64,000 nt of DNA, from positions 4,095,912 to 4,159,911 of the forward strand of contig NZ_CP031012.1 of NCBI RefSeq assembly GCF_009497775.1, given 5' to 3'. A model generated the notes under the pieces. The model was not told where the DNA came from and did not search any database. It saw only the letters and a list, made by a program, of their open reading frames with translations. The DNA comes from Alcaligenes faecalis (GTDB taxonomy: Bacteria; Pseudomonadota; Gammaproteobacteria; Burkholderiales; Burkholderiaceae_B). Numbering within the stretch: position 1 is the stretch's first letter; each line of letters opens with the position of its first letter. Below are positions 17,010 through 64,000 of the stretch, one piece after another. A program made the translations under genes and the position numbers.

Positions 17010-17948
17010 TTAATCCTCTGTTTGCTCCAGCAAGGACGACAGGCCCTGCTTTTCCAGCAAGGCATTCAGATGCTCCCAGCCATGGAAAGCGATCTGCAGC
17101 TGGCCCTTGTCCTTGGCACCGACCTTCAGGGTCACCTTGGTACCCAGGTGGTCGGACAGCACCTTTTCAAAGCGCTGTACGTCGCCATTGCGGCTGGCCT
17201 TGCTCTGGGCCTGCTTGCTGGCAGGCTCGTCATCCTCGTGCAGGGCACGGGCAACCAGCTTCTCGGTTTCACGCACCGACAGACGGCGGGCAATCACCTC
17301 GTTGGCCAGCATGATCTGGCGGGCAGCGTCCATGGCCAGCAAGGCACGGGCGTGACCCATGTCGATGTCACCGGCCAGCAGCATGATCTGTACGGGCTCA
17401 GCCAGGTTGATCAGACGCAGCAGGTTGCTGGTGGTCGAGCGCGAACGACCAATGGCCTGGGCGGCCTGCTCGTGGGTCAGACCGAACTCGTCCAGCAGAC
17501 GCTTCACACCTTGCGCCTCTTCCAGCGGATTCAGATCTTCACGCTGAATGTTCTCGATCAGCGCCATGATGGCAGCGTTCTCGTCGCCTACTTCGCGCAC
17601 CAGAACGGGCACTTCTTCCAGGCCGGCAATTTGCGACGCACGGAAACGGCGTTCACCCGCGATGATCTCGTACTTGCCCTTATCCTTGCCCGACAGGGGA
17701 CGCACCAAAATAGGCTGCATCACACCTTGTGCGCGTATGGATTCGGCCAGCTCGTTCAAGGCGCCCTCGTCCATGCGAGTACGCGGCTGATACACCCCGG
17801 CCTTCAGCAGTTTGACGGGCAGGTTGGAAGGTGGGCCATCGCTCACCGCCGCTTCGCCCTTTTTCCCTATAGTTGCGATAGCGCCTGCGTCTGCGCCGAG
17901 CAAGGCATCCAAGCCTCGACCTAGACCTTTTGGTTTTCGTGTAGCCAT
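17010..17948 (-). CDS. parB: Chromosome partitioning protein ParB
   Basis: ParB is a CTP-dependent DNA clamp that loads at parS sites and spreads along origin-proximal DNA. The 312-residue protein has the N-terminal ParA-contact segment (KPKGLGRGLDALLG), the CTP-binding box GERRFRA at residues 98-104, a helix-turn-helix in the middle (LTHEQAAQAIGRSRSTTSNLLRL) and a C-terminal dimer domain. It follows parA by 29 bases. Four parS-like sites lie within 14 kb. Confidence 0.98.
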   Translation of the reverse strand: MATRKPKGLGRGLDALLGADAGAIATIGKKGEAAVSDGPPSNLPVKLLKAGVYQPRTRMDEGALNELAESIRAQGVMQPILVRPLSGKDKGKYEIIAGERRFRASQIAGLEEVPVLVREVGDENAAIMALIENIQREDLNPLEEAQGVKRLLDEFGLTHEQAAQAIGRSRSTTSNLLRLINLAEPVQIMLLAGDIDMGHARALLAMDAARQIMLANEVIARRLSVRETEKLVARALHEDDEPASKQAQSKASRNGDVQRFEKVLSDHLGTKVTLKVGAKDKGQLQIAFHGWEHLNALLEKQGLSSLLEQTED

Positions 17949-17977: not shown

Positions 17978-18793
17978 TTACGCCTTATCGCTGCGGGAGT
18001 CTTTCTTCAAGCGCTTGATCAGCTCTTTGCCAAAGTCCATATAGGCCTTGGCGCCCCGGGAGTTCTTGTCGTAGACAATACCTGGCATACCGTGGCTTGG
18101 CGCTTCAGCCAAACGCACATTACGTGGCACAACCGTCTTGAACACCTTATCGCCAAAGTGTGTCTCGATCTGATTGGAGACTTGCTGCTGCAAGGTAACA
18201 CGACCATCAAACATCACTCGCAGCAGACCAATCAACTGCAAATCCGGGTTGATATTGCGATAGACCCGCTTAACCGTATTGACCAGATCCGACAGCCCTT
18301 CCAGTGCAAAGTACTCGCACTGCATGGGGATGATGACCCCGTGCGCGCTGGCCAGGCCATTGAGCGTTAGCAGCGACAAGGTAGGTGGGCAGTCAATCAG
18401 CACGAAATCGTAATCGTCCAGTACCTGTGCCAGTGCCTGTTTGAGTTGTTGCTCACGCTCTTGCATCTGAATCAGGTCGATTTCCGCGCCCGACAGCTCC
18501 CTATTGGAAGGCAAGACGTCATAGCCACCTGTTTCTGAATGTATCTTGACGTTAGCAATGTTTTCATCGCCAATTAGCACCTGGTATAAATTACCAGACA
18601 GGCTGTTTTTATCAATGCCACTACCCATGGTGGCATTACCCTGAGGATCCAGGTCAATCAATAAAACTTTTTTCTTCAATGCTGCAAGCGCAGCGGCCAA
18701 ATTGATTGCAGTGGTCGTCTTGCCCACCCCGCCCTTTTGGTTCGCAATACAAAACACATAGGCACGGGGAGATTTTTCGTCGTTTTTACTCAT
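17978..18793 (-). CDS. parA: Chromosome partitioning ATPase ParA
   Basis: ParA is the ATPase that moves ParB-parS complexes during chromosome segregation. The 271-residue protein has the deviant Walker A motif KGGVGKTT at residues 20-27, Walker A' LIDLDPQGN and Walker B DFVLIDCPP. I chose MSKNDEKSPRAY because AAGGA stands five bases before it; an upstream start would run into rsmG. It begins two bases after the rsmG stop, so translation is probably coupled. Confidence 0.98.
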   Translation of the reverse strand: MSKNDEKSPRAYVFCIANQKGGVGKTTTAINLAAALAALKKKVLLIDLDPQGNATMGSGIDKNSLSGNLYQVLIGDENIANVKIHSETGGYDVLPSNRELSGAEIDLIQMQEREQQLKQALAQVLDDYDFVLIDCPPTLSLLTLNGLASAHGVIIPMQCEYFALEGLSDLVNTVKRVYRNINPDLQLIGLLRVMFDGRVTLQQQVSNQIETHFGDKVFKTVVPRNVRLAEAPSHGMPGIVYDKNSRGAKAYMDFGKELIKRLKKDSRSDKA

Positions 18794-18795
18794 GA

Positions 18796-19467
18796 TTATC
18801 CTTGCTGCACCAACCACACTAGACAACGCTGTGCCTCTAGCTCCGGTACGGTTAATGATTCTATTCGTTCGACCTGCCAGTTACTTTCAGATTGCAATGC
18901 GGCTATTTCCAAATCAGGTTCTTTACCCTTCATAGCTGCAATGCGCCCACCTAGGCGAACATGCCTGCCTGCCAAATTTACGAAATCAAGCAGCGAAGAA
19001 AAAGCTCGGGAAACCACAATATCTGCCTGCATGGGTTCCTGCTGCTCTACACGCACATGCATAGCCGACAAATTGGGTAAGGCCAAAGCCCCAACCATTT
19101 GTTGAACAAATGCCATTTTTTTCTCAACAGCATCAATGCAAGTAATGTTCCACGTGGAACATGATGCTGCCAAAACAACACCCGGCAAACCAGCCCCTGA
19201 CCCTACATCCACAATCCGAACCGATTCTTGTGCCGAGCGATTGCTGCTGGCCAGATAGTTCTGGAACGGGCGGACAATCGACAGGCTATCAAAAATATGT
19301 TGCACCAGCATTTGATCTGGGTCACGCAGGGCGGTCAGATTATAGGTACGGTTCCAGCGCTGCAACTGATTAATGTAATCCAGTAGCTTGCGCACCAAGG
19401 CGGGGTCCTGATCCAGGCCCAAATCCAGCAGGGCCTGATTCAGGCGTTTTGAAAAAATATCGCTCAT
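18796..19467 (-). CDS. rsmG: 16S rRNA (guanine-527-N7)-methyltransferase RsmG
   Basis: RsmG (GidB) methylates G527 of 16S rRNA using S-adenosylmethionine. The 223-residue protein carries the SAM-binding motif [13 protein letters not shown] and the family segment [13 protein letters not shown] [10 protein letters not shown]. Its start overlaps the mnmG stop (ATGA). A perfect parS-like palindrome lies inside the coding sequence, so the codons there serve two roles. Confidence 0.97.
19146..19161. other. parS: parS site inside rsmG
   Basis: TGTTCCACGTGGAACA is a perfect 16-base palindrome differing from the general parS consensus (TGTTtCACGTGaAACA) by a symmetrical pair. It lies within the rsmG coding sequence, about 1.2 kb from parB. 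Confidence 0.85.
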
Positions 19468-21380
19468 GCCGTTTGTTTGTTTTTTTGCTTACGCTTCAGG
19501 TGTACCAACAATAAAGAAACCGCCGCAGGTGTCACACCCTGAACACGTCCGGCCTGGCCAATGGTTAAAGGCTTGGCCGCCTTCAAGCGTTGACGCACTT
19601 CAATCGACAATCCTTTGATGTCGTCGTAATCCAGATCCTCTGGAATGGCTTGCTCTTCCAGAGCTGCCTGACGAGTCACCTCGTCCTGCTGACGCGCCAC
19701 ATAGCCCGCATACTTCACCTGAATTTCCACCTGCTCAACATGCACCGGATCTTCCAAGCCTGGACCTGCTACGGGCGTACCTTGATCATTCAGCACAGCC
19801 ATCAGCTTTGCATAGTCCACTTCGGGCCGCTTGAGCAAATCGAAGAAGGAGTATTCCCGTTCGATGTTTTTACCTAACAGTGCGTTTGCCTGTTCGGCAG
19901 GCAAGTTGCGGGGGTTCACCCAGGTACCCTTCAAACGCTCGATTTCACGTGCGACTGCATCGCGCTTGCGATTGAAATGATCCCAACGAGCATCATCCAC
20001 CAGGCCCAATTCACGACCAATTTCAGTCAGTCGCTGGTCTGCATTGTCTTCCCGCAGGCTCAAACGATATTCGGCACGGGAGGTAAACATGCGGTAAGGC
20101 TCGGTCACCCCACGGGTAATCAAGTCGTCTACCAGCACACCCAGATAAGCCTCGTTGCGGCGTGGGTACCACTGCTCTTTCTCTTGTGCCAAACGAGCGG
20201 CGTTCACCCCGGCCAACAAGCCCTGAGCAGCTGCTTCTTCGTAACCCGTTGTGCCATTGATCTGGCCAGCAAAGAACAAGCCACGAATCTGTTTGGTTTC
20301 CAGCGTAGGGTACAAGGATCGAGGATCGAAATAATCGTACTCAATCGCGTAGCCCGGACGCATGATGCGGGCATTTTCCAAACCAGGCAGGCTGCGCACC
20401 ATAGCCAATTGGATATCGAAAGGCAAGCTGGTCGAGACACCGTTCGGGTAGATCTCGGTCGTGCTCAAGCCTTCAGGCTCCAAAAACACCTGGTGACTGC
20501 TCTTGTCCGCAAAGCGATGAATCTTGTCTTCGATCGACGGGCAGTAACGCGGGCCAATGCCCTCGATAGTGCCCTGGTCGCTATACATGGGCGAGCGATC
20601 CAAGCCCGAGCGAATAATGTCGTGAGTACGCTCGTTAGTGTGCGTAATCCAGCACGGCATCTGTTGGGGATGCATGGAAACATCACCCATATAAGAGAAC
20701 ACCGGAATCGGATCACTATCGCCGGGCTGAACTTCCAGACGGGAAAAGTCGATGGTGTTGGCATCAATACGCGGAGGGGTCCCTGTCTTCAATCGCCCTT
20801 GTGGCAATTGCAGTTCCCGCAGGCGATGCGCCAGGCTAATGGACGGAGGATCCCCTGCCCGGCCTGCAGAATAATTATTCAGGCCGACATGGACCAGCCC
20901 ATTCAAAAAGGTACCTGCTGTCAGAACCACGGACTTGGCTTTGAACTCCAAGCCAATTTTGGTCACGGCACCCACCACCCGATCACCTTCCACAATCAAG
21001 TCTTCGACTGACTGCTGGAACACCATCAAGTTGGGTTGGTTCTGCAGAACCTCACGAATAGCCTTGCGGTACAAAGACCGGTCCGCCTGGGCACGAGTGG
21101 CGCGCACGGCTGGGCCTTTGGAACTATTCAGGGTACGGAATTGAATACCGGCATGGTCGGTTGCCAAAGCCATTGCCCCGCCCAGGGCGTCAACCTCTTT
21201 AACCAGATGCCCTTTGCCAATCCCCCCGATAGAAGGGTTGCAAGACATCTGCCCCAGGGTATCCATATTGTGGGTCAGTAACAGGGTAGACACGCCGGTT
21301 CGAGCTGCCGCTAAAGCCGCTTCGGTACCAGCATGTCCGCCGCCTATGACAATAACGTCAAACTCTTCGGGATAAATCAT
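19464..21380 (-). CDS. mnmG: tRNA uridine-5-carboxymethylaminomethyl modification enzyme MnmG
   Basis: MnmG (GidA) works with MnmE to add carboxymethylaminomethyl to the wobble uridine of certain tRNAs, using FAD, NADH and folate. The 638-residue protein has the FAD motif [18 protein letters not shown] at the start, the family signatures [21 protein letters not shown] and [13 protein letters not shown], and the C-terminal MnmE-contact helices. It is first in the mnmG-rsmG-parA-parB run. Two parS sites and a DnaA box lie in the DNA just upstream. Confidence 0.99.
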
Positions 21381-21430
21381 GTCAGAACAGCTAAAAAGTA
21401 AAAACCAATTATACGATTACCAGCGGTGTA

Positions 21431-21446
21431 TGTTCCACGTGAAACA
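21431..21446. other. parS: parS site upstream of mnmG (first)
   Basis: TGTTCCACGTGAAACA matches the bacterial parS consensus with one base changed. It is 51 bases upstream of the mnmG start. Confidence 0.9.
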
Positions 21447-21461
21447 CATGGAACCAACATC

Positions 21462-21477
21462 TGTTCCACGTGGAACA
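21462..21477. other. parS: parS site upstream of mnmG (second)
   Basis: TGTTCCACGTGGAACA is a perfect palindrome identical to the copy inside rsmG. It starts 31 bases after the first upstream copy, about three helical turns. Confidence 0.9.
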
Positions 21478-21499
21478 CAGTTTTTTGCGTAAATACCAC

Positions 21500-21508
21500 T
21501 GTGGATAA
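21500..21508 (-). other. DnaA box
   Basis: TGTGGATAA, a perfect DnaA box (TTATCCACA on the minus strand), 23 bases after the second parS site. Confidence 0.75.
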
Positions 21509-21712
21509 CTTTGTGGAGAAACAGGCCGTTTTTTATCCCCAGGCTACCCTATGGGGTACAAGCTGCGCTTCCAAAGATTTTTTTTAGTCAGAATCCCCCA
21601 GGGAGCGAAGCCATAAAAGGCGCGCTTATCACTCTTAAATCCCCTAAAAGTGGCTATCTAAGCGGGTACCCCATGGCAGGTGGATAAAAGCAGCCCAAGC
21701 AGGCAGCAAAAT

Positions 21713-21721
21713 TGTGGATAA
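21713..21721 (-). other. DnaA box
   Basis: TGTGGATAA, a perfect DnaA box on the minus strand in the non-coding DNA upstream of mnmG. Confidence 0.75.
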
Positions 21722-22271
21722 CAGAGCAATAAAAAGAAATACTGCCTGATGAACAGGAATACTGCCCAACAGTCTGGCGATAAGGAAATTTCCGCTGGCC
21801 TGGAGAAAATATAAGGCTTCGTTTTTTTAATCTGGCTACTTTGGCTGCAGGTAAAAAATGTCCTATGCGCAAAAAGAGAGCGCGCTCAGACAGCGCAGAA
21901 CTTGCCTGTGATGAGACAGATACTTTGAAAAACCAGCAGTACCTTGAAGCCCGTCTTGAAACCTGGTTCCTTATCAGGAAGCCGAGTTTAGGACACAAGT
22001 TTGACCAAAAAAATTCCCGCAGCTCTAACAGGCATCCGTAGCGAAGTAGCTGGAGAAGAAAAACGGACAGCAGGAAAAGCGGCGCTTTAACCCTATATAG
22101 GCAGCAGCTATATCAATGTAAAAAACTGTCCTGAGCGATCGGTTCCACGATCAACAGATCCATGTGGAATCTATGGTATTTTCGACAAGAATTTGTCTGA
22201 TACTTCACCACCCAACTTTTTGCTCAACTCTGAAGCGCGGGTGCATTTTTATTATTCATATCAGTAGACCC

Positions 22272-23444
22272 ATGCAGATTACATCCAAGCTCCCTTCTGT
22301 GGGCACCACCATCTTTACCACCATGAGCCAGCTGGCGCTTGAACACAAGGCCATTAACCTGGGCCAGGGCTTTCCAGACTTCAATCCGGATCCGGCTCTG
22401 ATCGAGGCTGTACACCAGGCCATGCTGGATGGCATCAACCAATATCCTGCCATGGCCGGCTATCCTGCCCTGCGAGCCGCTATTGCCAGCAAGACGCAGG
22501 CTCGTTATGCCCGCCTTTACAACGTGGATACGGAAATTACCGTTACCAGTGGTGCCACTGAGGCTTTGATGGCCAGTTTCCAGGCCTTTGTGCATGCAGG
22601 TGATGAAGTCGTCGTGATTGAGCCCTTCTACGACCTGTATATCCCCGCTATCGAGCTGGCCGGCGGTATTCCTGTTGCCGTCCCCATGACAGCGCCTAGT
22701 GAGGCTGTGCCCTACTACCGCGTCGACTGGGACCGTGTGGAGCAAGCCATTACCGGCAAGACCCGTATGCTGGTAATCAACTTCCCGCACAACCCGACCT
22801 GCACCATCTTGCAGCCCCAGGATCTGGATGCTTTGGAGCAAATTGTAGAAAAGCACCCTTCCCTGATCATCTTGTCCGACGAGGTCTATGAACACCTGAC
22901 CTTCGATCAGAAAGAGCATCTAAGCCTTGCTACCCGCCCTCGCCTGGCAGAACGAGCAGTGATCGTTTCTTCCTTTGGCAAGACCTTCCACGCCACAGGT
23001 TGGAAAGTAGGCTATTGCTGTGCTCCTGCCAGTCTCAGCACGGAAATCCGCAAGGTCCACCAATACACCGTTTTTACCGTTCCCAGCCCCTTACAGGCCG
23101 GTTTAGCCACCTATATGCAGGATCCTGCTACCTGGGAGAGCTTGCCCGCTTTCTACCAGGAAAAGCGCGATCATTTGCATCAAGGTCTGCAGAACACCCG
23201 TTTCACACCTATGCCCAGTGAAGGGACTTTTTTCCTGCTGGCCAGCTATGAAAACATTTCGGAATTGTCCGAGCTGGAGTTTGCCAAGCATTTGAACCAG
23301 AACTACGGCGTAGGCGCGATCCCCGTCTCTGCCTTCTACCTGAATCCCAATTCTGAGCAGGCTAACCATCGTTTGCTGCGTTTTTGCTTTGCCAAGCAGG
23401 CCAACACCCTGGATCAGGCCATTGAACGCCTGAAAAAGGTCTAA
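22272..23444 (+). CDS. ybdL: Methionine aminotransferase-type PLP enzyme (YbdL-like)
   Basis: A class I/II aminotransferase of 390 residues closely resembling E. coli YbdL, which prefers methionine and aromatic amino acids with 2-oxo acids. The opening SKLPSVGTTIFTTMSQLA and INLGQGFPDF, the cofactor contacts SDEVYEH (202-208), and the PLP lysine Lys237 in SSFGKTFHATGWKVGY are all present, as is the C-terminal LLRFCFAKQ. I chose the ATG giving MQITSKLP because it matches the family; the frame is open upstream. It is flanked by origin-like DNA on both sides and ends with its own terminator, so it is a single-gene unit. Confidence 0.93.
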   Translation: MQITSKLPSVGTTIFTTMSQLALEHKAINLGQGFPDFNPDPALIEAVHQAMLDGINQYPAMAGYPALRAAIASKTQARYARLYNVDTEITVTSGATEALMASFQAFVHAGDEVVVIEPFYDLYIPAIELAGGIPVAVPMTAPSEAVPYYRVDWDRVEQAITGKTRMLVINFPHNPTCTILQPQDLDALEQIVEKHPSLIILSDEVYEHLTFDQKEHLSLATRPRLAERAVIVSSFGKTFHATGWKVGYCCAPASLSTEIRKVHQYTVFTVPSPLQAGLATYMQDPATWESLPAFYQEKRDHLHQGLQNTRFTPMPSEGTFFLLASYENISELSELEFAKHLNQNYGVGAIPVSAFYLNPNSEQANHRLLRFCFAKQANTLDQAIERLKKV

Positions 23445-23468
23445 AGGCCTTTCTTCCTGCCTTTATCA

Positions 23469-23492
23469 AACCGCCGTCAGGCGGTTTTTTTT
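23469..23492 (+). terminator. Terminator after ybdL
   Basis: ACCGCC / GGCGGT stem with a GTCA loop followed by eight T, 25 bases after the stop codon. Confidence 0.88.
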
Positions 23493-23974
23493 CGTCCTGA
23501 TTTTTGTGGACAAGTGCGGTGGCCGCAATCTTGCCTATATCTGCCACAGAAGCTCCACAAGGGCCATGTAAAACAACACGCCTCATGCGAGGCGCAGAAC
23601 ACCGACCTCAACCAACAAAACCCGCATCTTGTGATCCACAAGACACCAAGCGTGAAACAGCTAATTCGGCCTCTTCGTGCTGTCCTGTTGATAACTTTGG
23701 GGGTAAACCTGATTTTTTGCCCAGTTATCGCTTCTTTTCCTTTGATAAAAGAAAAATCTAGTCAGCTCAGCGGCTTTCCTGTTTCCGCTCCTGTAGCCAG
23801 CAAAAAAACTGACCTCAAAGTTAAAACCACAAAAAATATAGATATAAAACAAGGACTTATTTCAACATTCCAGGCCTTGAACATACTTTCCAACTGTGAA
23901 AATACACAGTTCAGCAAGCCTTTTCAGGCGCAGCAGGATTCGTGCATGCACCAGCACACGCTTTACCCACAAAA

Positions 23975-23983
23975 TGTGGATAA
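23975..23983 (-). other. DnaA box
   Basis: TGTGGATAA, perfect DnaA box in AT-rich non-coding DNA. Confidence 0.75.
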
Positions 23984-24567
23984 GTCAAAAATTCAAACAG
24001 GATTGACCTAGTACAAGCTCCAGGCGCAGCAATCCCTGCAGCCATAGCAAATTCTTGGCCAAACACGTCGTCCAGGTAGAACTCCCCTCTTTTGCCAGCC
24101 TGGTCCTTTTCTTGAGTTTTTCTCATATTGAAAGAAAACCCAGGGAACAGACGACAAAGTCGATCTTGCACGGTTCTGAAAATTTATTTTCAGCCTTTGC
24201 GGCTCAAATTTCTGTATGCAAAAGCCGCATAAGCCAGCGTTGAGCGAGATCGTGATTTTTGTTCATGGACTGCATCTTAGTCGAGAACTTTTGGCTTGCA
24301 AAGGGCAGGGACCTGGCTTGCAGGGAGTTGAACTTATCTTATATAACAAGCACTTAAATCTTTTATTAGAATTATTGGATGGAGCCCTGTTGATAAGTCG
24401 AACAAGTGTCTTTAGCAATGATAAAACAAGAGCTTAGCGGTTTTTTTTCCGGGGATAGATCTAACGCTTACCGGTGGATGGTTTAGGTACAACTTTTAGA
24501 CTTCACAAAGAAGTACCTACTTATGCCTTATGTATCCACACCCTGTTCACAATGCCCTTCCTAGAGC

Positions 24568-24576
24568 TTATCCACA
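24568..24576 (+). other. DnaA box
   Basis: TTATCCACA, perfect DnaA box about 40 bases from the end of the phosphoesterase gene. Confidence 0.75.
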
Positions 24577-24612
24577 GAAAAGAAAATTGTAACAGCGGGA
24601 AGAAAAGCGGAT

Positions 24613-25671
24613 TTAGCAGGTTGGCTGCGTAAAACCGGTGTCCGTCATGATGATTTTCTCTGGCCAACGCAAAGCAGCCAGGTGAAAAGCCGAGTCTTCA
24701 GGCGTCTGGTCCTTGCGACGATCGCGCCAACGAGCTCCAACGGAAAAGTCCACGCAAAACGTATTTTTCTTTGCACCGTGCCAGGAAAATGGATCTATAT
24801 CCTTGAATAATAAGGAGTATTTAGACATTTTCGCTGTTGGTTGAGGAAAAAGCTGACGCCAGTAGTGGCCAAAAACGACCGGAATATCGTCCTGGTAGCT
24901 GTTCCACCAGGGGGTACGGTCGGAAAAACGCCAACGGTTGCCAGCAAAAAACGGGCGATCCGCGGGACCTTCGGTTCCGGAAGTCAGCAAACGGATGGGG
25001 TTGAAGTCATTTTTGACCAAATCGTAGTCAATGTAGGCCTGCAATAAAGGCATCAGGGTCTTTGGATCTTCAATTTTTTCTTTCCATTCTTGTTTTGCAG
25101 CCAGATATTTATTCAGAATTCCTTTTGTTTCTGCATAAGTATCAGCTTTACGCTCACATTCAAAGAAAAAATCAAGAAAATCTTCGCTTTTTACCGATCT
25201 AATTGCATCAATAGCTGGATTATTCCAGGCGGCATGCACAATTCTGAGGTCATTTCTTTCCAATGCAATGGGTAGTGAGCTTAAAAACTTTCGGATTTCG
25301 TCTTTATTTTGAGGTTTTGCACGCTTGAATGGCGAGTAATTCTTTAAATCTGACTGATATCGCTGATCAAAATACCATCCTGATCCATCTTTCGCATCGT
25401 CTATCAGTAGATTGATTTCATGATTACCTAATATTCCTTTTGCTTTATTATTATTTATCAAGGACTTAAGGTATTCAATTACAGCAGGGCTGTTTGGACC
25501 TCGATCACAATAATCTCCCACGAATATCAGGCTACGTTGCTCCGGATGAGATCCATCTTCCTGGTAACCCAAGTTTTGGATCAGTTGTTGCAAGGCTTGA
25601 AGCTCTCCATGTACATCACCGATGATGTCTAAAGAACCAGCAGGTAAAGGCTGTACAAGAAAGTTGGGCAT
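24613..25671 (-). CDS. Metallophosphoesterase (PPP/PrpE/ApaH-like)
   Basis: A 352-residue calcineurin-like phosphoesterase. The metal-binding motifs stand in order: GDVHG (D19, H21), GDYCDRGP (D53, D56), GNHE (82-85), a later His (IVHAAWN) and GHYWR near residue 267. These fit the bacterial PPP-like group, which removes phosphate from proteins or splits dinucleoside polyphosphates; the long insert between GNHE and the last histidine is unusual and the substrate is unknown. The coding DNA is clearly AT-richer than neighbouring genes, especially in its middle third, which suggests recent acquisition. It lies alone between two stretches rich in DnaA boxes. Confidence 0.82.
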   Translation of the reverse strand: MPNFLVQPLPAGSLDIIGDVHGELQALQQLIQNLGYQEDGSHPEQRSLIFVGDYCDRGPNSPAVIEYLKSLINNNKAKGILGNHEINLLIDDAKDGSGWYFDQRYQSDLKNYSPFKRAKPQNKDEIRKFLSSLPIALERNDLRIVHAAWNNPAIDAIRSVKSEDFLDFFFECERKADTYAETKGILNKYLAAKQEWKEKIEDPKTLMPLLQAYIDYDLVKNDFNPIRLLTSGTEGPADRPFFAGNRWRFSDRTPWWNSYQDDIPVVFGHYWRQLFPQPTAKMSKYSLLFKDIDPFSWHGAKKNTFCVDFSVGARWRDRRKDQTPEDSAFHLAALRWPEKIIMTDTGFTQPTC

Positions 25672-25733
25672 GGGTGAAGAGATCTTTATTTAACAATAAC
25701 TATATATATAACTGGTAATGGATAATGGGTGTC

Positions 25734-25742
25734 TGTGGATAA
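25734..25742 (-). other. DnaA box
   Basis: TGTGGATAA, perfect DnaA box about 60 bases upstream of the phosphoesterase start. Confidence 0.75.
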
Positions 25743-25914
25743 GTGGCATAGATAGAAATTTACCTTTAATTTCAGCATCTTATTGACCACTTTTACCTGT
25801 GCACCACCCCAATGGAGTCGGTGGACCGAAACTGGACAAAATTTGAGGTCTGGAAAGACAGGCAACTTATCCCCCTTTCATCCACAGCACGTCCACAACA
25901 GGCCTTCTTGGAGC

Positions 25915-25923
25915 TTATCCACA
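25915..25923 (+). other. DnaA box
   Basis: TTATCCACA, perfect DnaA box, with a one-mismatch copy TCATCCACA at 25878. Confidence 0.75.
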
Positions 25924-26191
25924 GGGTCCCAGAGCCAGTAGCTGCCTTAAATATAGCTTTTTTGCCCAGTCCCTGACCGATTTTCTGGCCGGATCTGGCC
26001 CGCCTGGAGCGTCTGGATGAGCGGATGTCGGTGTTTGCACCAACACCATGTTGGAGTGCGAATTAAGTCCTTATAATATCCACAAACTATTCACTTTCTT
26101 ATTAACTGCTGATTTCACCGGATTTTATATTTCCATTTTTGGTTTAATCTATTTTGTTAATAAAATTGTGGATTTCTTTGTTATCCAAATC

Positions 26192-26200
26192 TGTGGATAA
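26192..26200 (-). other. DnaA box
   Basis: TGTGGATAA, perfect DnaA box next to the near-match TTATCCAAA (26181); the AT-rich tract continues directly after it. Confidence 0.78.
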
Positions 26201-26580
26201 GTTGGGTTATCACGATTGTTATTTTTTTTCTGTCCCAAACAAAACCCTGTTTTTGTAATTCAATAACGTGATTTTGTTTTTTGCTTTCAGTTTTTATCTC
26301 TGTCTTTAAAAAAAATAAAAATTAGCAATTCGAATTATTGTTTTTAATTGCTGTTTGGATTGCTTTCTTTTTATCCATCTTTCTTCTATTTTGACTGGTC
26401 TCTTTTTTTATTAATTTATTTCCTCAGAAAAAATAGAAATTAATCAATTATTTGAGTCTTTTTATCTCTATTCTCCAGTCGCTTTCTTTGATTATTTTTT
26501 GATCTCTTTCTGGGTTTTGTAGATAAAGTTTGCTTATTTTTAATAAAAAAATGACTTGAAGCAGAGTAGTAAGCATTGAT
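26201..26580. other. AT-rich tract (possible DNA unwinding element)
   Basis: Roughly 380 bases made mostly of T and A runs, far below the GC content of the window. It has no long open frame. It starts right after a DnaA box and ends before the CGACC array, which is the position expected for an unwinding element. Confidence 0.5.
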
Positions 26581-26610
26581 TGATCGGGTTTAGTGGTGGA
26601 ACCTATCTGC

Positions 26611-26675
26611 CGACCCGACCCGACCCGACCCGACCCGACCCGACCCGACCCGACCCGACCCGACCCGACCCGACC
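26611..26675. repeat. Tandem pentamer repeat, CGACC x 13
   Basis: Thirteen perfect copies of CGACC in a row, 65 bases, sharply bounded by AT-rich DNA on the left and GCGGCGG on the right. Both strands are highly asymmetric (C-rich against G-rich). Open frames across it only encode a repeated Arg-Pro-Asp-Pro-Thr type peptide and are not credible genes. Such arrays change length by slippage. Confidence 0.95.
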
Positions 26676-27189
26676 GCGGCGGCTCGGCTGTCTCATGAAG
26701 GTCTGGGTATTTGTTCAGTATTGGATATAAACCCAGTCCTACGTATCCGTTTCCTGGCACTCCCTCCCTTGCCCAAGCACTAGCACGCTTTATTGATCGT
26801 TCTCTGTCCGGATGCCAAACGTGGCTTTTTGGCGATAGTGGGGAATTCGTTTTGTCAGCTATCTACTTTGATAGGACAATCTGCTCAGCGTGGAACTTTC
26901 GGGGCATTTGGGTCGACAAAGCCTTGGGTTTGAATCGCAAATCGCTGTCAAAGTGAGGCGAAACAGGCGCTTGCCTGAGTACAGGGACAGCGTATTTCTG
27001 TCTGGGCTCGTGGAATCACCCACTTATCTTTAAGGGGTATGTTTTTTCCTTGTGAGCAGCAGGGGTATTCTCCTGCTAGCCCGTGGCCTGTATCGCTATA
27101 AGAAATAGCGCGAAATCTCCCCTCATGTAACAATTGCCGCTAAGGCTGTTTAATCCTTAAGTATCGTCTCGCTACTCTCCCCGTACTTC

Positions 27190-30836: not shown

Positions 30837-30852
30837 TGTTCCACGTGAAACA
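30837..30852. other. parS: parS site downstream of the DUF4105 gene
   Basis: TGTTCCACGTGAAACA, identical to the copy at 21431 but 9.4 kb away on the other side of the origin-like zone. It lies in non-coding DNA just after a stop codon. Confidence 0.88.
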
Positions 30853-36160: not shown

Positions 36161-39100
36161 TTAGAACATCCAGTTCAGGAACAATTTACCGTTTATATCG
36201 GCACGGCTATCCCCTAATAAACGGGTATTGGCCGACAGCCCTAAACGCAGACGCTCGGATTGCTGCAAGCTGATGCTGGTTCCCAGCGACAAGGCATGGC
36301 GATCCACCCGTGCATAACGACCATCAAAACCCACAGATTGGGCACTGGCAAAGGCGGCTTCCTGGGTCTGATTACGGCTTAGCAAAGCCTGCTCCCAGGC
36401 CACCGACAAGGACGTTTGCAGTTGACGATCCTGGCTTAAATTCCAGTTTTGACGCAGGGCCAGGCCAATAGAGGCCTGCAAGGCGTTTTGACGGCTGGAA
36501 TCCAGACGCAGACGGCTGGCGGCATCGCCACTTTCTTCCAGTCCAGGACGACGGTAATGGAGGTAATCCAGAGCCAGAACCGGCCCGATGCTGCCGTTCT
36601 CACCCAGAGCCCAGTTGTAGCCAGTCTGTACCCCCAGCGAGAAGGTATGGCCTGTCCAGTCCGAGGAGGGACGTGCCTGATAGCCCGCAAAGCTGATGTC
36701 GCGGTTCATCTTGCCCTGCTCGATACCCACACGCAGCTGAGCCAAACCGTTCCAGCCTTCCTGGCTATAGCCACGGTAGCGGGCATGGACACCCAGGCCC
36801 AGGCCGGTCAGCTTGCTCTTGGCCTGGAAGGGAGCGTCCACGTTGACGCGCTGCTCGTTGGCACTACCGTGTACACCCAGGCTCCAGTCGCTGCCTTCAG
36901 CGCGGTGTTCCGCCCCCAGCATCACCCCATAGGTTTCGCTGCGGTGGTCCACATCGTTGCTACCCAGTTGCCAGTGGTAGCGGCCACCATAGGTCTGGAT
37001 GAAGCTTTGCCAGCCGCTCTTGTTGATACCCTCGGTTTGGCGCAATTGCTCGGACACCAGTTGTTCGCGGCGCAAGGCGGCGGCGGTTTGGGCGGCGTAA
37101 GCACCTGCGCTTAACTGATCCAGTGCCAGGCCAATATCGCTGCCATCAGCACGCGAGAAGTCCATGGCCTGATACACGGCGGCCAGGGACTGATTGCCCG
37201 AGGAGGCTTGGGCCAGGCTGGTACCTACTGCGGCTGCATTGGGCGAAGCGGCATATTGTGCATAAGCGTCCTGATTACGGCTGACGGACCAGCCATTGCC
37301 TGTGCTTTGTACATTCAGGGTGGGAGACGCCAGCGTGGCGCCATACAAGGCAAACTGCCCCTGTGTCTGGCTGGCGGTGAACACCTTGTCCTGATTCAGT
37401 GTCCAGCCGTTTTGATACCAGTCTGGCTGCAGGTCTACGTGCAGCTCGCCATCCAGCTGAGCCAGGCCCTGCACATCAATATGATCGTTCTGGGTGGTCG
37501 AGGCCTCCACCAGAATCCGGCCATCGGCACTTTGGACAAAGTTGCCCTTGATCGTCATGTTCCCGTAGGAGTTGCCGGGGCTGAGGGTGCCGTTATTGGT
37601 GAAGTTGTATTCAGGGTTGATGGTGAATTCGCTATTGCCGTACAGAGTAGCGCCCTGATCCACGCGCAAGCCATACAGCTCGTGCTGTCCATTCAAGGAC
37701 GTTGCGCCCCCGGCAATGACGACCTCCAGACTATTCTGGCCCTTGATATTGCCGTCATAACGCATCTGGAAGTTGGGGTCAGCCGCATTGGTGGCACGGC
37801 CATGTTCATCGGCCTTTTGACCAAAGCTGATGCGGGTCAGGCGCAAGTCCTGATTGTCATCCCGGCGGTTGTAATCCGAGGTGATGTCTCCCGTAATCTG
37901 CGCGCCCTGCAAAATATTGATGTTTTGTACCCAGGCATTGTCCGCGATATGGATGGCTGCTTTCTGGCCTGACAAGGTGCCGGACAGATCGTAGTTGCTG
38001 ATCAAGGCACCTTGCAAAATGGTTGGTACAGGACGTAGCTGGCCACCCTCTAGGACTAGCCAGGAGCCGTGATACTGATCGTCGCTACCCATGGCGTTCT
38101 GGCCGAAATCAAACAAGGCACCCACGCCATCCTGGCCATCTGCGCGGACTTCGCCTTGCTGGACAATATTGTGTAGGCGGCCATAGCTGAATTGCAGGCC
38201 GCGGCCATACCAGCCTTGAGCATGAATAAGCGTCGTCTTGGGGATGATCAGCGTGTTTTCACTACCATCCACACGTACACCTACCCCTCCTGGACCGGCT
38301 GTCAGCAGATCCGCTGCCTGGGTAATGGTGTTGCGTTCGCCATAAATGTGCAGGCCCAAGCCTTGTGTGGCCATGTTGTACTGGCCGGGCAGGTAGGCTG
38401 TGCCATCTGCATTGCGTGCAAAGTAGCCATTGGTATTGTTCAGGGTGACATCGTCCCCATAGACCGAATAGCCAAAGAAGTTGCGGCGATCAATGCTCAG
38501 CCCGATATCCTGCAAGGCGGCAATTTCGGCCTCCATCAGATTCACGTAGTTGCGATAGGTCTGATGGCTCATCAAGCTGTTGCGCAGCTCGGTGTGGCTC
38601 ATGTAGTTGCGGTCCACGCCGTACTGCGGTTGGTCGTGGTAGTTCAGGATGCTGACGGGGACGCCCGGCATGGCACCATTCAGGACTTCCTGTACGTGAT
38701 CCCCGGTGAAGTAGCCCTTGTCCTGGCGCAGGTCAAAAGCGGCAGGATCATATGGGTTGGAGCAGACCGAACACAGGATCTTTTGCCCGGGGCTCGGGGC
38801 TCGGCCCTGGTCATCGCGCAAGCCCAAGGCCCAGGGGCTAAGCTCACTCAGGAAGAAGGGATCGGGTGGATCAAAGCTGTCGCCAGGCAGGGTATCTGTG
38901 ACCGTATTGCTGATGCCCAAAGCGTGGGCCAGCTCGTGGAAAATCACTGCATTGTAATCAGCCTTGCCTGTTAAAGGCAGTTGGCTGGGGTTGACGGGGG
39001 CCGTGTCCAGATCTATTTTTCCAACACCGATAATGGCATCGGGATTAGTCGGGTCACCCTGGAATAACCCCAGCAAGCGTGCTTGTAAGGCTGAGAGGGT

Positions 39101-39463
39101 GAAATTGGGGTATGCCGAGTCGTTCCATTTCTTGCCATAGGCATTGGCATTTTTGATGCTCATGGTTCCCAGATTGATCACAGCCGGTGTATACCCTGCT
39201 GGCAAATTGATGATTTCAGCCCAGCGCTCCAGTGCGGCACGAATTTTCAGCCGGCCATTCTCGTCGATATTCCAGGGGGAAACGCGTTGATCGGTCTCAT
39301 CCGACGCATCGTAACTGCCATCATCAGGTCCATAGACCCTCAACTCAAAAGCTTGTTGACCTTGTTTGTTCAGAATGAATTCTGTCTCGTAGGCATAAGC
39401 GCTGCTGGTCCCGCTCAAGGCTAACAGGGTGTGGGCTAGTAGTGCTTTGATTTTCAAGTCCAT
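36161..39463 (-). CDS. Autotransporter with N-terminal metalloprotease-like domain
   Basis: A 1100-residue type V secreted protein. A signal peptide (residues 1-24, ending AYA) is followed by a metzincin-like domain with the zinc motif HELAHALGISN (His176, Glu177, His180) and a possible Met-turn SLMSH (297-300). The passenger continues as beta-helix-like repeats to about residue 800, and a C-terminal autotransporter barrel (roughly 835-1100) ends in the aromatic residue needed for outer-membrane insertion. The third zinc ligand position, normally His or Asp, is Asn186. CSVC (231-234) is uncommon for a passenger. The likely role is a surface or released protease; no accessory gene is adjacent. 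Confidence 0.9.
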   Translation of the reverse strand: MDLKIKALLAHTLLALSGTSSAYAYETEFILNKQGQQAFELRVYGPDDGSYDASDETDQRVSPWNIDENGRLKIRAALERWAEIINLPAGYTPAVINLGTMSIKNANAYGKKWNDSAYPNFTLSALQARLLGLFQGDPTNPDAIIGVGKIDLDTAPVNPSQLPLTGKADYNAVIFHELAHALGISNTVTDTLPGDSFDPPDPFFLSELSPWALGLRDDQGRAPSPGQKILCSVCSNPYDPAAFDLRQDKGYFTGDHVQEVLNGAMPGVPVSILNYHDQPQYGVDRNYMSHTELRNSLMSHQTYRNYVNLMEAEIAALQDIGLSIDRRNFFGYSVYGDDVTLNNTNGYFARNADGTAYLPGQYNMATQGLGLHIYGERNTITQAADLLTAGPGGVGVRVDGSENTLIIPKTTLIHAQGWYGRGLQFSYGRLHNIVQQGEVRADGQDGVGALFDFGQNAMGSDDQYHGSWLVLEGGQLRPVPTILQGALISNYDLSGTLSGQKAAIHIADNAWVQNINILQGAQITGDITSDYNRRDDNQDLRLTRISFGQKADEHGRATNAADPNFQMRYDGNIKGQNSLEVVIAGGATSLNGQHELYGLRVDQGATLYGNSEFTINPEYNFTNNGTLSPGNSYGNMTIKGNFVQSADGRILVEASTTQNDHIDVQGLAQLDGELHVDLQPDWYQNGWTLNQDKVFTASQTQGQFALYGATLASPTLNVQSTGNGWSVSRNQDAYAQYAASPNAAAVGTSLAQASSGNQSLAAVYQAMDFSRADGSDIGLALDQLSAGAYAAQTAAALRREQLVSEQLRQTEGINKSGWQSFIQTYGGRYHWQLGSNDVDHRSETYGVMLGAEHRAEGSDWSLGVHGSANEQRVNVDAPFQAKSKLTGLGLGVHARYRGYSQEGWNGLAQLRVGIEQGKMNRDISFAGYQARPSSDWTGHTFSLGVQTGYNWALGENGSIGPVLALDYLHYRRPGLEESGDAASRLRLDSSRQNALQASIGLALRQNWNLSQDRQLQTSLSVAWEQALLSRNQTQEAAFASAQSVGFDGRYARVDRHALSLGTSISLQQSERLRLGLSANTRLLGDSRADINGKLFLNWMF

Positions 39464-41896: not shown

Positions 41897-43270
41897 TCAC
41901 TTCCCAATACAAAAACTGGAGAAAATCTCCCCCAGCAAATCATCGCTGCTGAATTCGCCGGTAATCGAGCACAAATCCAGATGTGCCAGGCGCAGTTCTT
42001 CGGCAAACAGATCCAGCACCTGATCGCTGTGCGTAGCGTGTTCTGCCGCCAGACCCAGGTGGTACTCTGCGCGCTCCAAGGCTCGCAGGTGTCGTTCTCG
42101 TGCCAGCCAGGGGGATTCGCTGCCGGGGTTCCAGCCTGCGATATCCAGCAAGGTGCGGCGCAGCGTGTCCAGACCTACATCCTTACGGGCGGAAATTGGC
42201 AGCACGGTGGCGCCGCTTTCCTGGGCGGGCAAGGCGGCCTGTTGCTCAGCTGTCAGCAAGTCTATCTTGTTATAGACGCGCAGCACGGGTACATGTGATG
42301 GCAGGCGAGTGGTAATGGCACTGTCCAGCTCGTCTTGCGGGTTGCGTGCATCCAGCAGGTGCACGATCACGTTGGCTTTGGCGATTTCGTCCCAGGTACG
42401 GGCAATGCCGATGCGCTCTACGGTGTCCTCGGTTTCACGCAAACCGGCGGTATCCACGATATGCAGCGGGATGCCATCAATGTGGATCAGCTGCATGACG
42501 CGATCGCGGGTGGTGCCGGCAATATCGGTCACGATGGCCACATCCTCACCGGCCAGGGCGTTGAGCAGGCTGGATTTGCCCACATTGGGCTGGCCTGCCA
42601 GTACAACGTGTAGGCCTTCGCGCAGAATCGCCCCCTGACGCGAATGCTGCAGGATGCGTTCCAGCTCGTCCTGTATGCCTTGCAGGGTGGCCGCTGCCTG
42701 GTATTTTTCCAGGAAGTCGATTTCTTCTTCGGGGAAATCCAGCGTGGCTTCTACGAGCATGCGCAGGTGAATGATGCGGTCGGCCAGGGCGTTGACGTTA
42801 TTGGAAAAGACGCCGGACAGGGAGGCGACGGCACTGCGGGCAGCGGCCTCCGAGGAAGCGTCAATCAAGTCGGCCACAGCCTCAGCTTGGGCCAGGTCCA
42901 GTCTGTCGTTCAGGAAGGCGCGCTGGGTGAATTCGCCGGGCTCGGCCAGGCGCAGGCCCTGATCTTTACCCGCTTCCAGGCAGCGATCCAGCAGGCGGCG
43001 CAGAACAGCTGGGCCGCCGTGGCCTTGCAGTTCCAGCACGTCTTCGCCGGTATAAGAGTGCGGGCCTTTAAAGAACAGTGCGATGCCCTCGTCGATTGCT
43101 TCGCCTTGTGCATCCTTGAAGGGCAAAAAGTGTGCATGACGCGCTTGTAGCGCGCGGCCAAACAGGGTCTGGATCAGAGCATCAAGCTCCTTGCCGGACA
43201 CACGGATGACACCAATACCACCCCGGCCGGGGGCGGTGGCAATAGCCACAATAGGGGAAGAACTGGACAT
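41897..43270 (-). CDS. mnmE: tRNA modification GTPase MnmE
   Basis: MnmE (TrmE) works with MnmG on the wobble uridine of tRNAs. The 457-residue protein has the N-terminal folate-binding domain, a central G domain ([27 protein letters not shown]) inserted in a helical domain, and the conserved C-terminal end CIGK whose cysteine is needed for activity. In related genomes it sits between yidC and mnmG; here it is isolated by long stretches on both sides but keeps the same strand. Confidence 0.99.
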
Positions 43271-61199: not shown

Positions 61200-62867
61200 T
61201 TAGCTGTTGGCTGCTTTCGCGCTGTTCTTTTCGATCTGCAGCGTGATGTAGCGCTGTTGTGCAATGGACAGGATGTTGTTCACGCACCAGTACAGAACCA
61301 GACCAGCGGGGAAGAAGAACATCATGCCACCAAAGACCAGAGGCATCAGCATCATGACTTTGGCTTGCATTGGATCAGGCGGAGTTGGGTTCAGCTTGAT
61401 CTGCAGGAACATGGTACCCATCATGATGGCGGGCAGAATCATCCATGGGTCGCGTGCGGCCAAGTCGTGAATCCACAGAATCCAGGGTGCACCGCGCATC
61501 TCGACGCTGCCCAGCAGCACCCAGTACAGCGCAATGAACACAGGGATCTGAACCAGCATAGGCAAACAGCCACCCAGCGGGTTGATCTTCTCGGTGCGGT
61601 ACATCTCCATCATGGCAGCGTTCAGCTTGGCCTTGTCGTCACCGAACTTTTCGCGCAGGGCTTGCATGCGTGGAGCAAATTGCTTCATCTTGGCCATGGA
61701 GCGGTAGCTGGCAGCCGACAGCGGGAAGAACACCAGCTTGATCAGCACGGTCAGCGCCACAATGGACCAGCCCCAGTTACCCAGCAGGGAATGCAGCCAG
61801 GTCAGCAGCTTGAACAAAGGCTTGGAGATGATGGTCAGCCAGCCGTAGTCCACAACCAGATCCAGACCGGTAGCCAGTTGCGACATGGCCTTCTGGTCTT
61901 GCGGGCCTACCCACAGGGAGGCGTCCACGGCCTTGTTCTGGCCAGCAGCGATAGAACCGACCGATTCCAGCGTGCGCACGGCGTACAGATTGTTGCCCAG
62001 CTTCAGGATTTCGTTGGTGCGTTGCAGCTCCTGGGCGGGAACCCAGGCGGTTGCAAAGTAGTGCTGCACCATGCCGATCCAGCCGTTATCCACGCTGCGA
62101 GCGTAGGTGGCCTTGTTCTTGTCGATGTCCGAGAAGGTGATCTTCTGGAACTTGTCGCCGCTGGAGTAAACCACAGGACCGGTAAAGGTGCTGTACAGGC
62201 GGGACGAGTCGGCCGGGTTGTTGCCGTCACGGGTCAGTTGCAGGTACAGGCGTGGGTCAATCGCGGCGCCCGTATTGTTCTGGATGTCGTGACGAACCTG
62301 GATGTCGTAGCGGCCCTTGTGCAGCGTGTAGGTCTTGGTGACTTTCACGTCGTCCGAAGTGGCTTCAAACACCACGTCCAGCGTATCGCCTGTCATGCTG
62401 CGCTGGTTCGAGACCAAGGCGAATGGAGTCAGGTGGTTGGGCAGGTTCTGGCCGGAGGCACCCACAATACCGGACTGGGCCAGGTAGGTGGAGGCGGGCG
62501 AGTTATCCAGCAGCACCATGGGCTGCTCGGGGTTCTCGGGCGAACCGTACTTCAACAGCTCGGACTTGATCAGCTGGGCACCTTCGGTGCTGAAGCTGAG
62601 CTTGTAGACGTCTGTTGTGATGTCGATGGTTTGCGCTGTGGCGGACACCGCGCTGTTGCTCGAAGGCAAGGCAGCAGACGCAGTCGGCTCTTGAGCAGCG
62701 GGAACACCACCATTTGCGGCAGGTTCGTCGGAGGCTGCTGGAGCTTGCGTGGTGGCTGGGGTGGAAGCGAACAGCGATGGCTTGCCGTTATATTCCTGCC
62801 AGTTGTTCCACAGCAGCAGCAGTGCAAAGGAGAAGATCATCCATAGGATGGTGCGTCGGATATCCAT
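61200..62867 (-). CDS. yidC: Membrane protein insertase YidC
   Basis: YidC inserts and folds inner-membrane proteins, with or without Sec. The 555-residue Gram-negative form has an N-terminal membrane segment (IRRTILWMIFSFALLLLWNNW), a linker rich in Ala/Pro/Thr, a periplasmic domain to about residue 345, and five C-terminal membrane segments with the conserved LLNWGWSIVALTVLIK and GGCLPMLVQIPVFIALYWVL. In related genomes mnmE follows; here a terminator and about 18 kb of other genes follow. Confidence 0.98.
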   Translation of the reverse strand: MDIRRTILWMIFSFALLLLWNNWQEYNGKPSLFASTPATTQAPAASDEPAANGGVPAAQEPTASAALPSSNSAVSATAQTIDITTDVYKLSFSTEGAQLIKSELLKYGSPENPEQPMVLLDNSPASTYLAQSGIVGASGQNLPNHLTPFALVSNQRSMTGDTLDVVFEATSDDVKVTKTYTLHKGRYDIQVRHDIQNNTGAAIDPRLYLQLTRDGNNPADSSRLYSTFTGPVVYSSGDKFQKITFSDIDKNKATYARSVDNGWIGMVQHYFATAWVPAQELQRTNEILKLGNNLYAVRTLESVGSIAAGQNKAVDASLWVGPQDQKAMSQLATGLDLVVDYGWLTIISKPLFKLLTWLHSLLGNWGWSIVALTVLIKLVFFPLSAASYRSMAKMKQFAPRMQALREKFGDDKAKLNAAMMEMYRTEKINPLGGCLPMLVQIPVFIALYWVLLGSVEMRGAPWILWIHDLAARDPWMILPAIMMGTMFLQIKLNPTPPDPMQAKVMMLMPLVFGGMMFFFPAGLVLYWCVNNILSIAQQRYITLQIEKNSAKAANS

Positions 62868-62974: not shown

Positions 62975-63217
62975 TTAGAAAGTGTTGCGGTCTTCGGGCG
63001 TGCGAGCGGGCACAGGATCATGCCCTCCCTTGCACCAGGGATTGCAGCGGCAGATGCGTACACCACCGAGCCATAGCCCTTTGAGCGGGCCATGAATTTC
63101 AATGGCCTGCAAGGCATAGTTGGAGCAGCTGGGGGTAAAGCGGCAGTTTCTACCGATCCAGGGACTCAGAAAAAACTGGTAAAAGCGGATCGGTGCCGAA
63201 GCCAGTTTGCGCATCAT
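62975..63217 (-). CDS. yidD: Membrane protein insertion efficiency factor YidD
   Basis: YidD is a small membrane-associated protein that helps insertion of membrane proteins, always between rnpA and yidC. The 80-residue protein has the family core [32 protein letters not shown]. It overlaps rnpA as ATGA; the next codon is also ATG. yidC follows after 107 bases. Confidence 0.95.
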
Positions 63218-63579
63218 GGCCGTACCTTGGAAAACAAGGTGTCGGCCTCGGTGCGAACCAGTTGCTTCAGGGCGGTCAGCGACACCTGGGGTACCTTGCT
63301 GTGCAGCCTAAAGACATAGGCGGCATTGGGCAAGCCTTCGCGTTTGTGGCGGAAGGTTTCACGCAAGATACGTTTGATGGTGTTGCGGGTGACGGCGCGG
63401 TTGGCAAAGCGCTTGGGGACGATCAGTCCCAAACGGGCGCCTTCGGTCTGGTGTGGATCCTCGCCACGAGAGCGAGTGACCACGAACAAAGCCCCGCGAC
63501 CTACGCGTTGTCCTTTTAATGACTGCGCGTATTCGGTGGGGCTATGTAAGCGAGCCGTAGCTGGAAAGGAGGCACGCAT
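63214..63579 (-). CDS. rnpA: Ribonuclease P protein component
   Basis: RnpA is the protein part of RNase P, which trims tRNA 5' ends. The 121-residue basic protein has the RNA-binding signature ([26 protein letters not shown]). It follows rpmH after about 70 bases and overlaps yidD by four. Confidence 0.96.
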
Positions 63580-63951: not shown

Positions 63952-63960
63952 TGTGGATAA
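63952..63960 (-). other. DnaA box in the rpmH-dnaA gap
   Basis: TGTGGATAA, the only perfect DnaA box I see between rpmH and the window edge. The last 90 bases probably contain the start of the dnaA control region; dnaA itself is not in the window. Confidence 0.7.
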
Positions 63961-64000
63961 CTTGGCACAGCTCAGGGTAGAATCGAGGTTTACAGAAGTG

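Follow-up and report, generated by a model that had tools for sequence, protein, structure and literature searches.

The chromosomal replication origin of this Alcaligenes faecalis genome very probably lies beside mnmG, between 21.4 and 26.6 kb of the DNA analyzed here, and has a twin-core layout that resembles oriC of Escherichia coli. The analyzed stretch, hereafter called the window, comprises the final 64 kb (C1:4095912-4159911) of a closed chromosome, which measures 4,159,911 bases and is recorded from dnaA onward. Three named Alcaligenes (A. faecalis AU14, Alcaligenes sp. SORT26 and A. pakistanensis) have MnmG proteins with 96-100% identity to the one encoded in the window. The initial annotation had proposed an origin beside mnmG and not dnaA, as in E. 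coli, about 38 kb from the dnaA side. GC skew, DnaA boxes and core geometry support this placement computationally, and the candidate origin was found ~37-38 kb from dnaA. Base 1 of the assembly, set at dnaA, is thus ~37 kb away from the likely origin, and the mnmG side should serve as reference when dosage or strand effects are analyzed in the genus.

GC skew was obtained from 490 contiguous kb around the region and from 20 spaced 20-kb samples, one of which represents the dnaA end and one of which lies inside the 490 kb, while most of the chromosome is covered by samples only. In the samples, positive values extend from 0 to 2.1 Mb and negative ones from 2.3 to 4.0 Mb. Within the contiguous stretch, all 10-kb steps between C1:3.90 and 4.12 Mb are negative and all those from there via dnaA to ~70 kb are positive, with two slightly negative steps later on, at 70 and 220 kb. 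A cumulative minimum had been predicted between 21 and 27 kb. The curve indeed forms a plateau from 24.4 kb onward, whereas the minimum itself is found at 27396, 1.5 kb past module B (see below). Since the curve is nearly flat in between (-606 at 24388, -639 at 27396), the skew locates a zone and not a single box or core. A minimum at dnaA, one of the outcomes that had been named as speaking against the proposal, was not found, and the skew is positive on both sides of this gene. The only dif-like site of the chromosome, C1:2192075 with two mismatches, results in arms of about 1.93 and 2.23 Mb.

The seven perfect DnaA boxes (TTATCCACA) described beside mnmG were all recovered (21500, 21713, 23975, 24568, 25734, 25915 and 26192), and the several one-mismatch copies mentioned along with them amount to 13 within 21381-26580. 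This clustering is far above chance. The entire window comprises just one further perfect box, at 63952, while shuffled sequences gave an expectation of 0.34 per 64 kb and a maximum of 2; if one mismatch is allowed, 31 boxes face 10.4 expected ones. Genome-wide, 23 perfect boxes were counted, seven of them within 21500-26200 of the window. Close to dnaA, where many boxes just past base 64000 would have spoken against the proposal, only two are perfect: the one at 63952 and one at C1:1450 within dnaN. The latter is the only perfect box that the first 309 kb beyond base 64000 add, as the next one follows at C1:309511. Of 13 further family genomes inspected, 10 have a counterpart of the box at 63952 in the same position; this box probably serves the control of the dnaA promoter. 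The coordinates of all features are given in Table 1.

Table 1. Features of the candidate origin and its surroundings (window coordinates).
Feature	Position	Strand	Remarks
parB	17010-17948	-	NCBIfam match
parA	17978-18826	-	NCBIfam match
rsmG	18796-19467	-	NCBIfam match
parS, exact palindrome	19146-19161		C1:4115057
mnmG	19464-21380	-	TIGR00136, 921 bits; reads away from candidate origin
Two parS	21431-21446, 21462-21477
DnaA boxes 21500 and 21713	21500-21721	-	Identical in 8 aligned genus genomes
Class I/II aminotransferase ORF	22164-23444	+	Real start probably more internal
Conserved boxes 23505, 23686 (one mismatch), 23975 (perfect)	23505-23983
Module A	24328-24576 (core 24388-24576)	+	Profile without the genus, E 1.7e-26
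Module A flank	24328-24387		AT-rich, 28% G+C
Module A R1-like box TGTTGATAA	24388-24396
Module A IHF-like site	24424-24436		Sequence match
Module A inner box	24532
Module A R4	24568-24576
Calcineurin-like phosphoesterase gene	24613-25671	-	PF00149; between modules A and B
Module B	25674-25923 (core 25734-25923)	+	Profile without the genus, E 2e-37
Module B flank	25674-25733		AT-rich, 28% G+C
Module B R1	25734-25742
Module B IHF-like site	25770-25782		Sequence match
Module B inner box	25878
Module B R4	25915-25923
Perfect DnaA box	26192-26200	-	Identical in 8 aligned genus genomes
AT-rich tract	26210-26540		25% G+C; AT-rich across genus genomes, sequence poorly conserved
Perfect (CCGAC)13 array adjoining AT-rich tract	26610-26675
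parS, right flank	30837-30852
Single DnaA box	63952-63960	-	56 bases ahead of dnaA start

Boxes of this cluster are arranged as two cores of ~190 bp each. A core consists of the inverted pair TGTGGATAA and then TTATCCACA, termed R1 and R4. In module B (25734/25915) both boxes are perfect and 181 bp apart, whereas in module A (24388/24568) the left box carries one mismatch and the distance is 180 bp. The 60-bp flanks of R1 are AT-rich and among the least stable 60-bp stretches of the window (lowest 0.3% for B, 0.7% for A), so that meltable DNA is located right beside the boxes. Furthermore, both cores contain an IHF-like match with one mismatch, 36 bases from the start of R1, where 0.29 matches are expected per 190 bp. 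For comparison, the IHF site of E. coli, measured against the same IHF consensus, has two mismatches and is located at 27. A first profile was built from 28 modules of other genera, three of which were wrongly oriented; the rebuilt profile gave the same picture for the window, with E-values of 5.9e-42 and 2.7e-27 for the two cores and 0.57 as the best match on reversed sequence. Module A scores 95.5 bits and module B 143.6 bits. At the box ahead of dnaA, the 28-module profile gave single-box matches only (E 4.5 and 5.1).

Both modules are well conserved within the genus. Pairs A and B, each with up to one mismatch, were detected in all 10 genus genomes at a spacing of 178-181 bp. The phosphoesterase gene in the gap between them is present in nine of the 10 (G000-G005, G007-G009) and was not found in G006, where this gap is short. 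In an alignment with eight other genus genomes, built without G006, the identity per 100 bp is gene-like, 0.88-0.93 for module A and 0.84-0.89 for module B, compared to 0.44-0.83 for those steps within 21481-24180 and 25981-26780 that are non-coding. The boxes outside the cores show their own conservation: those at 21500, 21713, 23686 and 26192 are invariant across the eight aligned genomes, and in the one at 23975 a single genome shows a one-base change. We also considered a third core, either at 21.5-21.7 or at 23.5-24.0 kb, and rejected it; the boxes there are conserved, yet lack a match to the core profile.

A perfect pair at core spacing is found in 149 of 229 family genomes, while the reversed pattern matched none of them; the pair is missing in the other 80, in some of which a one-mismatch box conceals it. 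Among 300 genomes drawn from the order, seven of 11 family members have the pair, compared to eight of 289 genomes from other families. Three of these eight, all of one family (f30), carry it 27-30 kb upstream of mnmG, while in a fourth member of f30 it is on a different contig. We then compared core and skew in every family genome that offers both contiguous sequence and an upstream module at mnmG, 14 in total, a set that leaves out G001-G009 (15-kb stretches only) and G019 (dnaA on other contigs). The skew minimum is located 5-4433 bp from the core in all 14, within 1.5 kb in 13 of them, and its distance from dnaA ranges from 8.4 to 152 kb. Taken together, the genomes give a chance of 2e-13, which is a rough figure, as they were taken as independent and positions as uniform. 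Most telling are G022 and G016, in which the upstream side of mnmG faces away from dnaA and the minimum nevertheless stays by the module (5 bp and 4.4 kb). The core of G022 rests on its perfect pair, as the rebuilt profile gave no match to it at an E-value below 0.05. As a side aspect, the G022 MnmG is 68% identical to that of the window, and its DnaA (L201, G022:C1:29849-31240) 39%, compared to 66-90% in nearly all other family genomes. Five further genomes, none of them among the 14, have no clear core on the mnmG side, and their skew points clearly to neither place. Of these, G155 has its minimum 2.2 kb before dnaA, G020 and G015 have it between mnmG and dnaA, and in G026 and G029 the skew is too weak.

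The number of cores varies between genera. All 10 Alcaligenes (within the set G000-G024) have two modules, while among 15 other family genomes five have two (G010, G013, G016, G017, G019), eight have one and two have none upstream of mnmG. Two perfect pairs were counted by eye in 19 of the 229 family genomes. In 23 tandem pairs, seven of which were picked for having two modules, the copies are co-oriented with R1 toward mnmG, and their profile matches start 358-2654 bp apart. In a module tree with low support at many nodes, the A and B modules of Alcaligenes form separate groups; consequently, the duplication predates the split of these species. Other pairs often group within their genus, which suggests, at low support, repeated duplication or homogenization.

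The position of the core varies as well. Perfect boxes just after dnaA were found in eight of 14 genomes of other families in which dnaA was examined. Profile matches at this place include G026 (E 9.3e-17) and weak ones in G031, G033, G038, G039, G028 and G036; since the rebuilt profile includes the G026 module (L146), the independent score of this genome is that of the first profile, and the scores of other-genus modules are not independent. G155 (0.008) and G020 (0.38) also match after dnaA; the classification assigns both to the family, whereas the tree places them apart from its main group. Weak matches upstream of mnmG were seen in G029 and in some Comamonas and Limnohabitans loci. It is thus probable that the core was relocated more than once, and in the order genomes with an mnmG-side state are interspersed with those in the dnaA-side state. 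Only for this mixing of states was the genome tree used, which is midpoint-rooted and pulled by the fast-evolving G022. The family offers a natural series of one core, two cores and a relocated core, in which the essential parts of an origin and the role of a second core can be tested.

We considered whether replication starts at dnaA, with the cluster beside mnmG serving to hold DnaA or to regulate, much as datA or DARS do in E. coli. The start of the record at dnaA and the perfect boxes in the dnaA-dnaN gap of several other families of the order (the eight of 14 genomes mentioned above) would fit. However, in the window's genome dnaA and dnaN overlap by four bases if dnaN starts at its first ATG, which leaves no gap between them, only two boxes lie nearby, the skew is positive on both sides of dnaA, the minima of all 14 testable relatives are remote from this gene, and the parS sites are at mnmG. 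Skew, box counts and the dnaA-dnaN overlap led us to reject this reading, which we regard as very unlikely. Still less probable, to the point of being nearly negligible, are two separate active origins, one here and one elsewhere. This idea draws on the relative G081, whose contig C14 has two perfect cores 67 kb apart (L221 and L224; C14:214936 and 282220). The more distant of them lies past dnaA in inverted orientation, and a single positive 10-kb skew step adjoins it. In contrast, the window's genome has a single perfect pair, the 490 kb contain one origin-type sign change, and the 20 samples elsewhere fit one origin and one terminus.

Assuming the origin to be beside mnmG, its operation can be sketched along the lines of the E. 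coli model, in which DnaA occupies R1 and R4, IHF bends the DNA and opening occurs on the mnmG side. By this analogy, DnaA would bind R1, R4 and the inner boxes of each ~190-bp core, IHF would introduce a bend between R1 and R4, and the AT-rich flank, which adjoins R1 toward mnmG, would open for helicase loading. ParB bound to the nearby parS sites would then segregate the region. We infer this binding of DnaA and IHF, the unwinding and also a division of labor between the tandem cores, which are separated by a gene. Module B, in which both R1 and R4 are perfect, is the likelier main start. Module A would be a retained second core that may start replication too, or may tune the process by holding DnaA. 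There is an even chance that only module B is an origin core, with A being either a duplicate in decay or a site that just holds DnaA or sets the timing and is unable to start replication. The lower score of A and its R1, which is imperfect in all nine aligned genus genomes, point in this direction. Decay is unlikely, however, as the identity around A is as high as around B across eight genus genomes, and both modules are present even in G005 and G006, the most divergent members of the genus. A broader reading, which we put forward tentatively and hold to be somewhat less probable than its opposite, is that Alcaligenes and several other genera of the family possess a twin origin of two complete and individually conserved R1-R4 cores in tandem, 0.4-2.7 kb apart, some with an intervening gene. 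Both cores could assemble DnaA and start replication, or one could gate the other; duplication or homogenization would have occurred seemingly more than once, and the core would have moved across the order between the mnmG side and the dnaA-dnaN gap.

How far does the likeness to E. coli reach? OriC of E. coli K-12 (NC_000913.3 3925744-3925975, between mnmG and mioC) is likewise adjacent to mnmG, and its inverted R1-R4 pair has R1 and the AT-rich flank toward mnmG. The R1-R4 spacing of 180 bp in strain MG1655 compares to 180 and 181 bp in the window, with mnmG on the same side. However, the window has two cores with a gene between them instead of one core, no mioC was identified at its origin, and a 301-bp core region contains one GATC compared to 11 within 246 bp of E. 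coli. Even with two mismatches allowed, the 13-mers GATCTNTTNTTTT were not found in the R1 flanks of the two modules, while several matches lie in the AT tract right of module B. Without dense GATC and without 13-mers beside R1, Dam/SeqA control is unlikely to be the same as in E. coli. Neither the first profile, up to an E-value of 10, nor the rebuilt one matched the E. coli oriC stretch (L220). We class the region as an oriC of presumably E. coli-like operation that stands outside the enterobacterial sequence family. That a spacing of ~180 bp is common to both without recognizable sequence likeness points to geometry as the kept trait. The bipartite origins of Bacillus subtilis and Helicobacter pylori also consist of DnaA-box groups with a gene between them, but those are unlike parts flanking dnaA, whereas here two like cores stand in tandem away from dnaA.

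The location itself has precedents. In Bordetella pertussis, a member of the same order, gidA (mnmG) is taken as the first gene after the origin (PMC6321869) and described as adjacent to it (PMC11316554), although the respective passages of both sources concern a convention of genome rotation and not core anatomy. Vibrio chromosome 1 shows the gene order of the window, as the portion of PMC2875227 on this region lists ParB, ParA, GidB, GidA ... ThdF, YidC, RnpA, RpmH ... DnaA, while MioC follows GidA there and other genes are found in the window. In PMC2275245, gidA is also named among the oriC-adjacent genes. Literature searches for duplicated or tandem oriC and for Alcaligenes faecalis oriC returned, as judged by titles and the opening lines of abstracts, no paper on a duplicated core in the family. 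Thus the place next to mnmG is already known, and what is new is the presence of two cores in tandem.

Exact parS sites occur at only four places of the genome, all in the window and mutually within 12 kb, whereas the other five parS-like places have two mismatches each. As proposed, exact sites flank the box cluster, three to its left and one to its right, and a long AT-rich tract does follow the last boxes. The prediction that genes from mnmG leftward run away from the origin agrees with 11 identified genes, all on the minus strand (mnmG, rsmG, parA, parB, tuf, nusG, rplA, rplJ, rplL, rpoB and rpoC), a count restricted to named genes, with the remaining left-side ORFs being unnamed. To the right of the origin, mnmE, yidC, yidD and rnpA (41897-43270, 61200-62867, 62975-63579) are located on the minus strand as well and are therefore transcribed against the fork, which would be expected if the origin was formerly nearer to dnaA. 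An autotransporter-type protein with a beta-domain is encoded at 36161-39463. The CCGAC array beside the AT-rich tract reads (GGGTC)n on the opposite strand, a G-quadruplex motif. No such array was found elsewhere in 766 kb of sequence examined from the same genome, and CCGAC arrays of varying length are present in seven of 10 Alcaligenes, G005, G006 and G009 being the exceptions.
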